In this document: positions 1 to 7,335 of the stretch, piece by piece
How positions within the stretch are numbered: the first letter of the stretch is position 1
How the letters are laid out: every line of letters begins with the position of its first letter
NCBI RefSeq assembly: GCF_003416885.1
Contig: NZ_QVPD01000007.1
Location: 13,039 to 77,038, forward strand
Origin: Cognatiluteimonas weifangensis
GTDB taxonomy: Bacteria > Pseudomonadota > Gammaproteobacteria > Xanthomonadales > Xanthomonadaceae
DNA length: 64,000 nt
Direction: 5' to 3'
Notes under the pieces: generated by a model
Databases searched by the model: none
Seen by the model: only the letters and a program-made list of their open reading frames with translations
What the model was told of the DNA's origin: nothing
Program-made: the position numbers and the translations under genes

Positions 1-3000
1 CATCCCTTCGCTCTCCAGCTGCGCCTGGAAGGCCGCGATCGCCGCCGACGGGCCGGCGACGACGCCACTGCCCGGCGCGTTTTCCGCCGCCAGCGACAAC
101 TCCGCCGGCAGCCGCGCGAGCAGCGCCTCCAGCGGCAGCCGCACCGACAACATGCCGCCGGCCGGCTGCGCCTGCATCAGCGCGCCGCGTCGCGCCACCA
201 GCGCCAGCGCGTCGGGCAGCGCGAACACGCCGGCCAGGGTCGCGGCCACGAACTCGCCGACGCTGTGGCCGATCATCGCCGCCGGGGTCAGGCCCAGGCT
301 CAGCCACAGCCGCGCCAGCGCGTACTCGATCGCGAACGTCGCCGGCTGCATGATCGCCGTCGGCAGCAACGCCGCCGGGTCGGCGCTGAACATGCGCTCA
401 CGCAGGTCGCAGCCGAGCACGCCGCGCAGGCCCTGCGCGCACTCGTCCAGGGCCGCGCGGAATATCGGCTCGCTGTCGTACAGTCCGCGGCCCATGCCGG
501 GGTAGGTCGCGCCCTGCCCCGGGAACAGGAACACCACGTCACTCTGCCGCGCCGGCCGGCCGTGCGCGACCGCGGCGGCGAACTCCGGACTGCGCAGCTG
601 CGCGACGGCGCCGGCGACATCGTCGGCGACCAGCGCTGCGCGCTGGGCGAACGCCTTGCGCCCGGCCGCCAGCGTCCAGGCCACGTCCGCCAGGTTCGCA
701 TCGGGTTGCGCTTCCAGGTGTTCGGCCAGGCGCGCGCCGGCGCGCGCCAGCGCTGCCGGCGTGCGCGCCGAGAGCACCAGCAGCTGCGGCCCGCTCGCCG
801 GTTCGGACGCCGGCAATACCGGCGCTTCCTCCAGCACCACGTGGGCATTGGTGCCGCCGACACCGAACGAACTCACCCCCGCACGCCGCGGTGCATCGCC
901 GTCGGGCCAGTCGCTCAGCGCGGCGTTGACCACGAACGGCGAGCCGGCGAAATCGATCGCCGGATTGGGCGTCTGGAAATGCAGGCTGGCGGGGATCTTG
1001 CGTTCGGTCAGCGTCAGCGCGGTCTTGATCACGCCGGTGGCGCCGGCGGCGATCACCAGGTGGCCGAGGTTGCTCTTCACCGAGCCGATGCGGCAAAAGC
1101 CGGTATCGGCGGTGCCGCGGCGGAACGCCCGGGTCAAGCCCTCGATCTCGATCGGGTCGCCCATCGGCGTGGCGGTGCCGTGGGTCTCGACGTAACCGAT
1201 GCTGCGCGGATCCACCCGCGCGCGCTCGTGGGCCATGGCGATCACCGCCGCCTGCCCGGCGCTGCTGGGCGCGGTGAAGCTGGCCTTGCCGCCGCCGTCG
1301 TTGTTGACCGCGCCGCCGAGGATCAGCGCGAACACCTCGTTGCCGTCGGCCACCGCATCGGACAGGCGCTTGAGCAGCACGATCGCCGCGCCGTCGCTGA
1401 ACACCGTGCCCTGCGCATTGGCGTCGAAGGCGCGGGTGCGGCCGTCGGGCGACAGCATCGCCCCGTCCTGGTGGAAATAGCCGCTGCGCGGCGGGCAGGT
1501 GACGGTCACGCCGCCGGCCAGCGCCATGTCGCACTGGCCGCCGCGCAGGCTGTCGACGGCCTGGCAGATCGCCACCAGCGAGGTCGAGCACGCGGTGTGC
1601 ACGCTGATCGCCGGCCCGGTGAGGTTCAACTTGTGCGCCACATGGGTGGCGATGAAGTCCTTTTCGTTGTTCAGCATCACCTGGAAAGCGCCGACCTTGT
1701 CGACCAGCTCCGGATGGGCGAGCACGTGGCGCTGGAAATAGCTGGCGTTGTACATCCCGGCGAACACCCCGACCGGTCCCGGCGTGGCGTCGGGCACGTG
1801 GCCGGCGCGCTCCAGGCATTCCCAGGCCAGTTCCAGGAAGATTCGCTGCTGCGGGTCCATCAATTCGGCCTCGCGCGGACCGATGCCGAAAAACGCCGCG
1901 TCGAACTGCTCGACGCCGTCGATCACGCCGCGCGCCGCGACGTAGGCCGGGTCGTCGCGCTCGGCGGCGCCGATCGCGGGATCCAGGTCGTCGGGGCCGA
2001 ACACGGTGATCGAATCGCGGCCCTCGCACAGGTTGCGCCAGAACGCCTCCACGTCGGCGGCGCCGGGGAAGCGCCCGGCCATCGCCACGATCGCGATCGG
2101 CTCGGTCGCCGTCGTCCGCAGCTCGCCGCTGCGATCGGCGCGCGCGAACCGGGACGCCTCGATCGCATCCGCGCCGCCGTCCGCCAGCGCCGCCGCCAGC
2201 GCCGCGGGCGCGGGGCTGCGGAACAGCAGCGAGGCGGGCAGCGCGCCCGGGGTGTCGTGCGCATGCACCTGCCGGAGCTGCTCCATCAGCCGCACTGCCA
2301 GCAACGAATCCCCGCCCAGCTCGAAGAAGTTGTCGTGCCGGCCGACGCGGTCGATGCCCAGCAGCCCGGCGAACAGCGTGCACAACGACTGTTCCAGCGC
2401 GCCTACCGGCGGCTCGTAGGCGCCGGCGAGTTGCGGACGCTCGCGCACCGGCGCCGGCAACGCGCGGCGGTCGAGCTTGCCGTTCTCGGTCAGCGGCAAC
2501 GCCTGCAGGTCGACGAACGCGCCCGGCAGCATGTAGTCCGGCAGTGCCGCCGCCAGGTGCGCACGCAGCGCCGCGTGCGTCGCCGGCTCGCCGTCGGGGA
2601 CGACGTAGGCCACCAGCCACGCTTCGCCGCCGGGTCCGTCGGCGCGCGCGATCACCGCGCACGCGCGCACCGCGGGGTGGCGCACCAGCACGCTCTCGAT
2701 CTCGCCGGTCTCGATCCGGAAGCCGCGGATCTTGACCTGGTGGTCGATTCGGCCGAGATGTTCCAGGTCGCCGTCGTCCAGCGCACGCGCCAGGTCGCCG
2801 CTCTTGTACAGCCGCAGGCGCTCGCCGTCGGGCGCCTGCCAGTCCAGGAAACGCTCGGCGTTGAGTTCGGGACGGTTGAGATACCCGCGGCACACGCCGG
2901 CGCCGCCGACGTGGATCTCGCCGACCTCCCCGACCGCAACCGGCACGCGATCCGGATCTAGCACGAACACGCGCAGGTCCGGGATCGGCCGCCCGATCAC

Positions 3001-4023
3001 GCTGCCGGCATTGCGCTCCAGGTCGGCGCGGACGATCGGCCGGTAGGTGACGTGCACGGTAGTCTCGGTGATGCCGTACATGTTGATGAGTTGCGGCTGC
3101 CGGTCGCCGTGGCGCTCGAACCACGGCCGCAGCATCTGCAGCTCCAGCGCCTCGCCGCCGAAGATCACGTAGCGCAGCGACAGCGCGGCCGGGTCCGTGC
3201 CCGCGGCCAGGTCGGCGTGGATCAGGCCGCGGAACGCGGTGGGTGTCTGGTTGAGCACGGTCACGCACTCGCGCAGCAGCAACGCATGCAACAGCTCGGG
3301 CGAGCGGCTGACCAGGTACGGCACCACCACCACGCGACCGCCGTGCACCAGCGCGCCCCAGATCTCCCAGACCGAGAAATCGAAGGCGTGGGAGTGGAAG
3401 AACGTCCACACGTCCGCCGGCCCGAAATCAAACCAGTCGGCGGTGGCGGTGAACAGGCGCGCGAGGTTGGCGTGAGTGACCTGGCAACCTTTCGGTTGCC
3501 CGGTGGAGCCGGAGGTGTAGATCACGTAGGCCAGATGCTCCGGCTGCGCCAGCGGCTCCGGATCGTGCACGGGCTGCGCCGCGAACTCGGCCCAGCCGGC
3601 ATCCAGCAGCAGCGTCGGGCCGTCGTACGCCGGCAACGCGTCGCGCTGCTGCGACGAGGTCAGCACCACCGCCGGGCGCGCATCCTCGAACATGAATTGC
3701 AGGCGTTCGCGCGGGTAGGCGGCATCCAGCGGCAGGTAGGCGCCACCGGCTTTCAGGATGCCGAGCAGGCCCACCACCATCTCCAGCGAACGCTCCAGGC
3801 CGATCGCCACCAGGGTCTCGGGACCGACGCCGAGCGCGCGCAAACGATGCGCGACCTGGTTGGCGCGCTGGTTGAGTTCGCGATAGCTGAGCGATGCACC
3901 TTCGCAGGTCACGGCGATCGCGTCCGGTGTGCCGGCGGCGTGCCGCTCGATCCGCTGCGGCACGCAATGTTCCCGCGCGACGCTGGCGTCGCATGTCGGG
4001 GGACTTGCCGAATCTGTGTCCAT
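1..4023 (-). CDS. Hybrid NRPS-PKS, starter module A-PCP-KS-AT (3' end beyond window)
   Basis: The first 1341 codons are in the window and the gene continues past base 1. The order is an adenylation domain (about residues 20-520; YTSGSTGQPKG at 169-179, NMYGITETT at 314-322), a carrier domain (GGDS, phosphopantetheine Ser573), a ketosynthase (641 to about 1050; Cys812 in HTACSTS, His948, His988) and an acyltransferase from about 1160 (Ser1254 in GHSVGE). No condensation domain precedes the A domain, so this looks like an amino-acid loading module feeding polyketide extension. Hand alignment to GrsA gives the pocket D215 F216 W219 N258 I287 G289 M315 V323 H324 K516, the published threonine code. 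GHSVG in the AT is compatible with malonyl-CoA, but the second specificity motif is outside the window. The ATG at 4023 is the first that includes the whole A domain. The final product is unknown. A phosphopantetheinyl transferase lies 2.3 kb away. Confidence 0.95.
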   Translation of the reverse strand, partial: MDTDSASPPTCDASVAREHCVPQRIERHAAGTPDAIAVTCEGASLSYRELNQRANQVAHRLRALGVGPETLVAIGLERSLEMVVGLLGILKAGGAYLPLDAAYPRERLQFMFEDARPAVVLTSSQQRDALPAYDGPTLLLDAGWAEFAAQPVHDPEPLAQPEHLAYVIYTSGSTGQPKGCQVTHANLARLFTATADWFDFGPADVWTFFHSHAFDFSVWEIWGALVHGGRVVVVPYLVSRSPELLHALLLRECVTVLNQTPTAFRGLIHADLAAGTDPAALSLRYVIFGGEALELQMLRPWFERHGDRQPQLINMYGITETTVHVTYRPIVRADLERNAGSVIGRPIPDLRVFVLDPDRVPVAVGEVGEIHVGGAGVCRGYLNRPELNAERFLDWQAPDGERLRLYKSGDLARALDDGDLEHLGRIDHQVKIRGFRIETGEIESVLVRHPAVRACAVIARADGPGGEAWLVAYVVPDGEPATHAALRAHLAAALPDYMLPGAFVDLQALPLTENGKLDRRALPAPVRERPQLAGAYEPPVGALEQSLCTLFAGLLGIDRVGRHDNFFELGGDSLLAVRLMEQLRQVHAHDTPGALPASLLFRSPAPAALAAALADGGADAIEASRFARADRSGELRTTATEPIAIVAMAGRFPGAADVEAFWRNLCEGRDSITVFGPDDLDPAIGAAERDDPAYVAARGVIDGVEQFDAAFFGIGPREAELMDPQQRIFLELAWECLERAGHVPDATPGPVGVFAGMYNASYFQRHVLAHPELVDKVGAFQVMLNNEKDFIATHVAHKLNLTGPAISVHTACSTSLVAICQAVDSLRGGQCDMALAGGVTVTCPPRSGYFHQDGAMLSPDGRTRAFDANAQGTVFSDGAAIVLLKRLSDAVADGNEVFALILGGAVNNDGGGKASFTAPSSAGQAAVIAMAHERARVDPRSIGYVETHGTATPMGDPIEIEGLTRAFRRGTADTGFCRIGSVKSNLGHLVIAAGATGVIKTALTLTERKIPASLHFQTPNPAIDFAGSPFVVNAALSDWPDGDAPRRAGVSSFGVGGTNAHVVLEEAPVLPASEPASGPQLLVLSARTPAALARAGARLAEHLEAQPDANLADVAWTLAAGRKAFAQRAALVADDVAGAVAQLRSPEFAAAVAHGRPARQSDVVFLFPGQGATYPGMGRGLYDSEPIFRAALDECAQGLRGVLGCDLRERMFSADPAALLPTAIMQPATFAIEYALARLWLSLGLTPAAMIGHSVGEFVAATLAGVFALPDALALVARRGALMQAQPAGGMLSVRLPLEALLARLPAELSLAAENAPGSGVVAGPSAAIAAFQAQLESEGM

Positions 4024-4286: not shown

Positions 4287-4682
4287 ATGAAACCCGACCT
4301 GACTCTGCTCTATTCACAACTCGGACTGAAGCCGGACTGCACCCTGGCCGAACTCCAGCTCGCCTATCGCAGGCGCATTTCCGAGCTGCAGCCCGATCGC
4401 CCGGCGGCCGGCGCGCAATCGGCGGACACCGCCGCGTTACTGCGCAACCTGATCTGGATGTACACCACGGCGCGCCGCTTCCATCGCCGCCACGGGCGCC
4501 TGCCGGGCGCGGCTCCGGCATCCGCCGCCCGGGGCGTGGGTTTCGCCCGGCCGCATCCGGCCCCGGGGCCGCCCGCGGTGGCCGCTCGCGGCCGGGCGCA
4601 GGCCCGGATCCGGCTCGGCTTCACCTTCCTCCTGCTGCTCCTGCTGCTCGGCCTGCTGGTCTTGCTGGAGCGCGGGCCATAG
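4287..4682 (+). CDS. Small J-domain-like protein with QPD in place of HPD and a C-terminal membrane anchor
   Basis: This 131-residue protein is divergent from the NRPS-PKS gene. Residues 5-35 follow the helix I-II pattern of DnaJ domains (LYSQLGLKP, then TLAELQLAYRRR), but the catalytic HPD tripeptide reads QPD, so stimulation of a DnaK ATPase is doubtful. The middle is rich in Pro, Ala and Arg. The C-terminus is a run of Leu (about 15 hydrophobic residues) followed by ERGP, which suggests a tail anchor with the J-like part in the cytoplasm. The start is the ATG directly before KPDLTLLYSQ; a longer upstream frame is open but does not look like protein. The next gene on the other strand ends 21 bases away. 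The role is unknown. Confidence 0.7.
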   Translation: MKPDLTLLYSQLGLKPDCTLAELQLAYRRRISELQPDRPAAGAQSADTAALLRNLIWMYTTARRFHRRHGRLPGAAPASAARGVGFARPHPAPGPPAVAARGRAQARIRLGFTFLLLLLLLGLLVLLERGP

Positions 4683-4703: not shown

Positions 4704-6098
4704 CTAGCGCGCACCTTGCCGGAACACCACCACTTCCACCGTTTGCAGCAGGATCATCAGGTCGAACAGCAGGCCGTGGTTCTTGACGTAGTACAGGTCG
4801 AACTTCAGCTTCTCCTCGGCATCCCGGACCGAAGCGCCGTAGGGGTAACGCAACTGCGCCCAGCCGGTCAGCCCGGGCTTCATGCAGTGGCGGACGGAGT
4901 AGTAGCGGATCTCGCGGCTGAGCATGTCGACGAACTGCGGCCGTTCCGGGCGTGGCCCGACGAAGCTCATCTCGCCGCGCAACACGTTGAACAGCTGCGG
5001 CAGCTCGTCCAGGCGAGTCTTGCGGATGAAACGGCCGACGCGGGTGCTGCGGTCGTCGTCGCGGCTGGCCCAGCGCGCGACCCCGTCCTGCTCGGCGTCG
5101 TTGCGCATGCTGCGGAACTTGGCGAGCTCGAAGCAGCGCCCGTTCTCGCCGACCCGGGTCTGCCGGTAGAGCACCGGCGATCCCGACTCCAGCCACACGC
5201 ACAGGGCGACCAGCAGCATCGCCGGCCAGGCGAGCAGCAACAGCGCCGAGGCGGCGATCAGGTCGAACAGACGTTTGCTCAGGCGCCGCGGCATCGAGTG
5301 GTCGAAACCGCCGGAGAACACCAGCCAGGACGGATCGGCCACGCTCACCGTGATCTGCCCCGCCTCGCGCTCGAAGAACGTGGACAGGTCGGTCACCAGC
5401 ACCCCGCGCTGCGCGCACTTGAGCATGCCCTCCATCGGCAAACCGCCACGACGCTCGTCGGGCGCGATCACGATCTCGTGGACGTGCAGCCACTGCGCCA
5501 GTTCCGGCAACTCGAAGTCGGTGTCGATCCGCAATGCCTCCGGGACCAGTGCCGGCTGCCCCGGCAGCGGCACGAAGCCGACCAGGGTGAAGCTGCGCCG
5601 GTCGCTGCTGCGACGCATGCGGTCGTTGATCAGGCTGGCATTGCGGCCGGCGCCGAGCACCAGGATGCGGCGCCGGAAAGCCTCGGTACGCAAGGCGCGT
5701 TCGGCGAGGAAGCGCAGCGTCGTCACGCCGATGCCGGCGCCAGCCAGCGTCAGCACCAGGACGCCGCGCCCGACATAGGTCTGCGGCACCAGGTAGAACA
5801 GCACCGACAGGACGACGCCCGCGAAGGCGAACGACAGCGCCAGCCGCAGCAGCAGCTCCATCGGCGTGCGCCGCACATGGACCTGGTACAGGCCGAACGC
5901 GGCCATCGCCATGGTCAGGAACGCCGCGACCAGCAACAGGCGCAGCACGCCGGTCTGCATGAACGCCGCCTCGCCGGCCGGGTCGTGCAGGAAACGCAGC
6001 CGGATCGCAAGCAGGCCGGCCGCGACGGTGAGGGCGCATTCCAGCAGCCACAGCACCAGGGTGGCGCGATCTTTGCGGCTGGCCGGCAGGATCGTCAC
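4704..6098 (-). CDS. Polyprenyl-phosphate sugar-1-phosphate transferase, PEP-CTERM/XrtA-associated type
   Basis: This 464-residue membrane enzyme transfers a sugar-1-phosphate to undecaprenyl phosphate, the first step in building an exopolysaccharide repeat unit. The N-terminal half has about four hydrophobic segments, then a CoA-binding-like Rossmann segment (RILVLGAGRNA). The C-terminal bacterial sugar transferase domain begins near KRLFDLIAAS and carries AKFRSMRNDAE, DELPQLFNVLRGEMSFVGPRPERP and GLTGWAQLRYPYGAS. From memory, the YPYGAS and VEVVVF..GAR ending is typical of the transferase subfamily found with PEP-CTERM/exosortase (XrtA) loci. No exosortase is visible here. It lies between the J-like gene and the phosphopantetheinyl transferase gene. 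Confidence 0.88.
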   Translation of the reverse strand: MTILPASRKDRATLVLWLLECALTVAAGLLAIRLRFLHDPAGEAAFMQTGVLRLLLVAAFLTMAMAAFGLYQVHVRRTPMELLLRLALSFAFAGVVLSVLFYLVPQTYVGRGVLVLTLAGAGIGVTTLRFLAERALRTEAFRRRILVLGAGRNASLINDRMRRSSDRRSFTLVGFVPLPGQPALVPEALRIDTDFELPELAQWLHVHEIVIAPDERRGGLPMEGMLKCAQRGVLVTDLSTFFEREAGQITVSVADPSWLVFSGGFDHSMPRRLSKRLFDLIAASALLLLAWPAMLLVALCVWLESGSPVLYRQTRVGENGRCFELAKFRSMRNDAEQDGVARWASRDDDRSTRVGRFIRKTRLDELPQLFNVLRGEMSFVGPRPERPQFVDMLSREIRYYSVRHCMKPGLTGWAQLRYPYGASVRDAEEKLKFDLYYVKNHGLLFDLMILLQTVEVVVFRQGAR

Positions 6099-6295: not shown

Positions 6296-7051
6296 TCAGT
6301 CGGCAGGCGGCCGCAGCCAGGCGCTCGACACCGCCGCAGCCGCGGGACCGGCAACGGCAGCCGCCCAGGCAGGACCCGCATCCAGCAGTTGCACCCGGCA
6401 GGTGCCGGCGACCGTGAGCTCCCCGCCATTGGCGCGGAAGCTGGACATCGCCCGCGCCAGCCCGATCCCGGCCGCCTTCAGCAGCGCTTCCTTGCGGACC
6501 CACAGGTCCAGCAGCGCCGCCGCGTGAGCCGCGGCATCCAGGCCGGACAGCGCCGCGGCCTCGGCCGGATGGCAAATGGCCGCGGCGATGTCGCGGACCG
6601 CGATCGCACGTGCGGCCGGCTCGATGTCGATCCCGACCGGGCCGATCGCGCTCGCCGCCAGCGCGACGCAACCGTCCGCATGACTGAGGCTGGTGCGGAG
6701 CTCAGACCCGGCGAGCCGCGGGCAGCCGCGCGCATCCCGGAACAACGGCACGGCCGCCGGCTCGCAGCCGAGCACCGCCGCCAGCAGCAGGCGGTGCCCT
6801 GCGTACGCCAAGGTGAGCAGGTCGCGGTCGGCCGCCAGCCGCCGGCGCCGGACGCGCGCCGCTTCGGCGGCATCCAGCAGCGCGCGCGCCGCGGGCAGCC
6901 AGCGCGCCCACGCATCGGTGTCGATCAGCAGCACCGTCACGCCAGTCCACGCCGTCAGCGCCCACTGCGGCGAAGGCAGGGCGTCGCCGAAGGCCGTCCG
7001 CAGATGCGCGGTGACTGCGCTTGCAGGGGCATGCTGGACTGATCGGGACAT
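6296..7051 (-). CDS. 4'-phosphopantetheinyl transferase, Sfp type
   Basis: This 251-residue enzyme would move the phosphopantetheine arm of CoA onto a carrier-protein serine. Diagnostic motifs are VGIDIE (Mg/CoA binding) and WVRKEALLKA in the second half, plus a LSHADG-type segment. It is single-copy here and of the larger two-lobed Sfp class. The start chosen is the ATG of MSRSVQHAP; the frame stays open 91 codons further but that stretch is Arg-rich and unlike the family. It lies 2.3 kb from the NRPS-PKS gene on the same strand, so activation of that enzyme (Ser573) is a reasonable inference, though such enzymes can also serve other pathways. Confidence 0.88.
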   Translation of the reverse strand: MSRSVQHAPASAVTAHLRTAFGDALPSPQWALTAWTGVTVLLIDTDAWARWLPAARALLDAAEAARVRRRRLAADRDLLTLAYAGHRLLLAAVLGCEPAAVPLFRDARGCPRLAGSELRTSLSHADGCVALAASAIGPVGIDIEPAARAIAVRDIAAAICHPAEAAALSGLDAAAHAAALLDLWVRKEALLKAAGIGLARAMSSFRANGGELTVAGTCRVQLLDAGPAWAAAVAGPAAAAVSSAWLRPPAD

Positions 7052-7335
7052 CCGCCCCCGCCGGATCGCTGCAGACCGCGGACACCGCCGCGGAACTGCA
7101 TCGGACAACGCCGGCCGGCACCCGCCACGGCCAACGCGTCGCCGGCAGCGCCGGTCGCGGGGCGATGACCGGGCTGCCGTCGCCCTGCCGTTGTGTTCCG
7201 CAGGCACGGCGGGGCCGGCGCTAAGGAGGACGGGGGAATCCCCGGTGGTTGCAATAACGGCGAACGGCTGGTGCACGCCCTGGCTCGGTCGTGCGCCGGC
7301 TCCCGCAGGCGCGCCACGGGGCAACGGCCCGAGTC

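Follow-up and report, generated by a model that had tools for sequence, protein, structure and literature searches.

The exopolysaccharide (EPS) loci of XrtA/PEP-CTERM systems (PMC1569441; TIGR03013, TIGR03098, TIGR03100 and TIGR03101) resemble the locus described here in three respects: a sugar transferase that passes the TIGR03013 cut-off, genes like those for hydrolases 1 and 2, and an acyl-activating enzyme in the locus. They differ in that our genome has no exosortase, the hydrolases score below the family cut-offs, and the acyl-activating role would here be taken by an NRPS-PKS, if the analogy holds. A multidomain synthase of ketosynthase (KS) type in a surface-polysaccharide locus has a precedent in the rkp-1 locus: fatty-acid-synthase-like genes of this Sinorhizobium/Ensifer locus are needed for the K-antigen capsule (PMC7902896).

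Hybrid NRPS-PKS lines of the mycosubtilin and microcystin type follow the order KS-AT-ACP-aminotransferase-C. The rkpA gene is synthase-like and, unlike the synthase described below, is not known to have amino-acid modules. Cyanobacterial beta-amino polyketides are likewise assembled by KS-AT-ACP-aminotransferase-C lines (PMC13252402). Most relatives that we found share this module order (KS-AT-ACP-AMT-C-A(Gly)-PCP), whereas our genome and its closest relatives have an amino-acid starter, no aminotransferase and no thioesterase (TE).

Domain organization and predicted substrates of the synthase

The window, the whole stretch of 64,000 nucleotides that was analysed, spans C43:13039-77038 of a 2.76 Mb genome assembled in 45 contigs (99.99% complete). 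We assign the genome to the Lysobacteraceae, as relatives of its family match loci from named Luteimonas and Lysobacter. Its first 4,023 positions (1..4023, minus strand) hold the 5' part of NRPS-PKS gene 1, whose open frame begins with an ATG at window position 4023, exits the left window edge and stops at C43:11739, with an ACP as its C-terminal domain. Pfam matches on the window part comprise AMP-binding, AMP-binding_C, PP-binding, the N- and C-terminal ketoacyl-synt families and Acyl_transf_1, whose best stretch is truncated at position 180 of 319. Together with the motifs they give the order A(Thr)-PCP-KS-AT. The adenylation (A) domain lies at 2443..3948 (minus strand; TIGR01733, 446.5 bits against a cut-off of 317.4) and has intact A3 (TSGSTGQPK), A7 (YKSGD) and A10 (NGKLD) motifs. 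It is followed by a peptidyl carrier protein (PCP) at 2188..2391 (minus strand; PF00550), with an intact LGGDSL motif at residue 570, and by a ketosynthase at 829..2103 (minus strand; PF00109 and PF02801) in which the Cys-His-His motifs TACSTS, ETHGTAT and KSNLGH are intact. The N-terminal half of the acyltransferase (AT), with intact GQG and GHSVG motifs, occupies 1..534 (minus strand; PF00698). The original prediction of an A-PCP-KS-AT protein with all catalytic residues in place therefore holds for domain order and motifs, with the qualifications that the gene is on the minus strand and that a scaffold gap just before window position 1 leaves only half of the AT inside the window. Its histidine motif HAFH (TSHAFHS), which we take to be of malonyl type, and the ACP motif LGLDSL lie to the left. 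Neither the window part of gene 1 nor its part left of the window contains a reductive domain (KR, DH or ER).

The start of gene 2 overlaps the end of gene 1 (ATGA), and its product has the order C-A(Gly)-PCP, with the condensation (C) motif HHIVCDG and no thioesterase domain within the protein or after the last PCP. Across the window and C43:8419-12943, the two proteins hold the A, PCP, KS, AT, ACP and C domains of a type I hybrid NRPS-PKS, with their catalytic motifs. The remainder of the cluster had been placed left of the window from the window sequence alone; the left-flank sequence, with the end of the AT, the ACP and gene 2, bears this out. The Gly module and the exopolysaccharide setting were absent from the earlier account, and it is the setting that is more out of the ordinary.

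Pocket codes rest on a sequence alignment of 274 A domains with GrsA. For GrsA we used what we take to be the reference sequence, and the alignment returned its known Phe code, DAWTIAAICK. The gene 1 pocket reads DFWNIGMVHK, as first reported, and this is indeed a published threonine code (PMC3547906). An identical code occurs in the A5 domain of the zeamine cluster NRPS of Serratia plymuthica, which is an internal extension module, whereas the domain described here belongs to a loading module (PMC3547906). Given the exact code, the prediction that the gene 1 A domain is Thr-specific is well supported. The gene 2 pocket, DILQLGLVWK, is one position away from DILQLGLIWK, presumably the classical Gly code. 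It differs at two positions from DILQLGMIWK, which is listed for Gly (PMC12283262). No MbtH-like gene was found in the genome. A 4'-phosphopantetheinyl transferase, encoded at 6296..7324 (minus strand; PF01648, 53.8 bits; start codon uncertain), is a candidate for activating the carrier domains.

From these domains and codes we propose that the A domain activates L-Thr as the adenylate and loads it onto the first PCP, from which the KS would accept the threonyl group for condensation with a malonate chosen by the AT. Because KR, DH and ER domains are absent, the product on the ACP would be an unreduced beta-keto thioester, 4-amino-5-hydroxy-3-oxohexanoyl-ACP. In the second protein, the C domain would then join this ketoacyl chain to Gly on the last PCP, giving a predicted Thr-malonyl-Gly chain with an unreduced beta-keto group.

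An exopolysaccharide locus and the proposed destination of the chain

Only 0.7 kb separates the synthase from the gene for an initiating polyprenyl-phosphate sugar transferase (4704..6098, minus strand), which matches TIGR03013, the XrtA/PEP-CTERM-system glycosyltransferase family, with 545.5 bits against a cut-off of 393.35 and was the only PF02397 gene recovered in a genome search. Beyond gene 2 lie two alpha/beta hydrolases, a GINT1_N-like protein (whose AlphaFold model, with a mean pLDDT of 37, is too unreliable for conclusions), a Polysacc_synt flippase and a DUF218/ElyC-like protein; one Poly_export gene is on another contig of the genome. The order transferase, synthase, hydrolases, GINT1-like gene and flippase is kept in Lysobacter sp. 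Root916, a culturable relative, and in two further genomes (G012 and G022), and the loci of relatives also hold GT4 glycosyltransferases, Wzy_C polymerase-like proteins, DUF218, a deacetylase and a UDP-sugar dehydrogenase. A small ORF that is divergent from the synthase (4287..4682, plus strand) encodes a J-domain-like product, which has QPD where HPD is expected and a hydrophobic stretch at its C terminus; homologues in G022, G012 and G026 occupy the corresponding position, and one relative gives a weak PF00226 match.

The linkage extends beyond this genome. Thirteen genomes of the same order combine a related PKS with a TIGR03013 gene; the two lie at most 5 kb apart in nine of them and at most 60 kb apart in 12. 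Genes like that for the second hydrolase (hyd2; E below about 1e-13) are present in all 13, on the same contig as the PKS match used in 12 of them, as against none of eight TIGR03013 genomes without a related PKS (Fisher p 4.9e-6, an overstated value, since the compared genomes are related and p-values from such non-independent genomes are optimistic). Members from Bosea and Hyphomicrobiales adjoin Poly_export, epimerase, WecG or GDP-mannose genes. Based on these observations, gene 1 makes up the first half of a small predicted Thr-malonate-Gly assembly line built into an exopolysaccharide locus, in an association conserved in relatives. Two exceptions count against an EPS role: in G020 the synthase and its adjacent hydrolases are 690 kb from the TIGR03013 gene, and the sampled genes beside the Granulicella synthase include no EPS families. 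The clustering could also reflect the nature of EPS loci as variable islands that gather secondary-metabolite genes as well.

The paired hydrolases (L003:6745-8366, on C43 to the left of the window) differ at the nucleophile elbow. The first, hyd1, has a Cys there in all ten sequences compared (GGICSAAD in our genome), and its model, of low to moderate confidence (mean pLDDT 68.7), places this residue between a strand (98-103) and a helix (105-116); comparison with the PDB matched alpha/beta hydrolases and gave no more specific hint. In hyd2 an Arg occupies the corresponding position in nearly all sequences, so that this protein is apparently a pseudoenzyme. Against TIGR03100 and TIGR03101 the hydrolases reach 49.7 and 70.0 bits, below the cut-offs of 168.45 and 202.75. 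A genome search for exosortase (PF09721) gave no match, which rules out a PEP-CTERM/exosortase system proper. The low hydrolase scores and the missing exosortase also weigh against the EPS role. In five genomes whose EPS loci lack the PKS (G010, G019, G023, G047 and G056), the TIGR03013 gene has a TIGR03098-like acyl-CoA ligase nearby; the synthase may therefore fill the acyl-activating role in our locus, as the analogy with XrtA/PEP-CTERM systems suggests.

Given that the synthase is built into a locus of Wzx/Wzy type, a role in polysaccharide decoration appears likeliest. Release or transfer of the chain would most likely fall to the adjacent Cys-elbow hydrolase, assisted by the Arg-elbow protein as a subunit without catalytic function, and the aminoacyl-ketoacyl-glycyl group would be added to the polymer or to its lipid-linked repeat unit. 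Counting against this, the analysis identified no acyltransferase whose specificity is known. The most likely product of the synthase, we infer, is an acyl-amino-acid group that substitutes the polysaccharide, or else a compound that is made together with it. The more specific reading, in which a two-protein, Thr-primed NRPS-PKS supplies an aminoacyl-ketoacyl-glycyl group for attachment to the polymer or to its lipid-linked repeat unit, strikes us as evenly poised between true and false. If it is true, modular NRPS-PKS chemistry would be one means of diversifying surface glycans.

The strongest competing explanation is that the product is a free small metabolite, secreted or intracellular (a linear beta-keto amide, or a cyclised product of pyrrolidine-dione or dihydropyrazine type), and that the genomic island merely happens to be common to it and the polysaccharide genes. 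Free metabolites are the usual products of NRPS-PKS lines, more distant members of the family end in TE domains, and the PKS-hydrolase pair of G020 stands far from its TIGR03013 gene. However, the EPS linkage kept in 12 of the 13 same-order genomes recurs in Bosea and Hyphomicrobiales, and the hydrolases resemble those of EPS systems; we regard a free metabolite as a real possibility that nevertheless falls somewhat short of probable.

Threonine as the probable starter and the exchange of starter domains

Gene 1 begins with A-PCP, and Pfam detects no N-terminal C domain in its product. A genome-wide search for PF00668 returned a single C domain over the cut-off, in the gene 2 protein, and one weak match elsewhere (21.3 bits against 30.6). 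Since the sole convincing C domain sits in the gene 2 protein, we find no C-domain subunit that could dock upstream, and Thr is very probably the starter of the assembly line. The loading module that the original prediction had described, Thr-specific, devoid of a condensation domain and priming a PKS, is upheld by the exact code and by the lack of a C-domain partner in the genome, and the docking subunit that was to speak against it has no candidate in the PF00668 search. It could still be argued that the A domain is internal, as in the related Thr-A/PKS modules of Chamaesiphon, a gammaproteobacterial MAG and Caldimonas, where a C domain precedes it, and that the Thr amine is acylated from a donor that is unlinked or unrecognised. 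With neither an N-terminal C domain nor a second one over the cut-off in a genome of 99.99% completeness, we consider this highly improbable.

Threonine priming, first described as uncommon chemistry, proved less rare than that. An A-PCP with the code DFWN[IV]GMVHK precedes a KS without a C domain at eleven loci in Pseudomonadota, Acidobacteriota and Verrucomicrobiota (our own, L031, L102, L030, L034, L038, L041, L042, L044, L051, which is a partial contig, and L060), and sister loci have starters of Val, Pro or Ser type; at L040, L043 and L074 an upstream C domain is present. In the KS clade to which our synthase belongs, the first A code is of Val type at L010, L025, L027 and L028 and of Pro type at L024 and L106, and a deeper KS branch includes Pro-type (L011) and Ser-type (L110) codes. 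The second A domain is Gly-type at nearly all loci, with a Thr code at L030 and L038. Among the other relatives with a locus long enough to span the module, most have a class III aminotransferase between ACP and C, a domain absent from our own clade (our synthase, L031, L102 and L073); most relatives also carry further C, TE or A modules.

In the KS tree our KS is nested among the Val and Pro loci, whereas in the A-domain tree our A domain falls among Thr domains of other phyla. This disagreement indicates that starter domains have been exchanged, and that in Lysobacteraceae Thr, Val and Pro starter A domains have, as judged from these trees, been replaced several times on a closely related KS-AT-Gly backbone. 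We found neither a published product for such synthases nor a paper tying NRPS-PKS to EPS loci in the open-access literature. Thr priming as such adds a member to a known kind; what is new is the variant, a synthase family set in EPS loci and with exchanged starters.

Extended to the family, polysaccharide decoration would mean that the NRPS-PKS enzymes of EPS loci make (Thr/Val/Pro/Ser)-malonyl-Gly acyl groups, that the Cys hydrolase and its dead Arg-elbow partner transfer them from carrier to polysaccharide, and that recombination swaps the starters and so varies surface chemistry. A surface glycan would thereby be acylated by an assembly line. We put this forward tentatively, and think it rather doubtful as a whole. 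Should the product instead be a free metabolite, the family still forms a natural starter-exchange series (Thr, Val, Pro and Ser) with a KS-AT-Gly backbone that hardly varies, and this bears on the swapping of NRPS loading domains.

The scaffold gap at the window edge

A gap of 95 N lies directly left of the window start, inside the AT domain. Positions 1..104 of the window are identical to the last 104 bp beyond the gap, an exact overlap of the assembly and not a repeat. Both AT halves map to one continuous AT in all relatives compared (L031, L073, L025 and L024), sharing about 33 residues. Because the two ends have these 104 bp in common and the halves overlap in relatives, the gap represents an assembly overlap with nothing missing. 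That the locus is decayed or misassembled and without function, as the broken gene might suggest, is hardly credible when the flanks overlap by exactly 104 bp, both halves fit continuous genes of relatives and every catalytic motif is intact. A reading of genes 1 and 2 as one protein of 2,891 aa was rejected, as the joined frame is an artefact of the N run, given the gene 1 stop at C43:11739 and the ATGA overlap. At the left end of the contig (L003:1-1426), an FG-GAP/VCBS-like repeat protein is interrupted by a separate 7-N gap within near-identical repeats.
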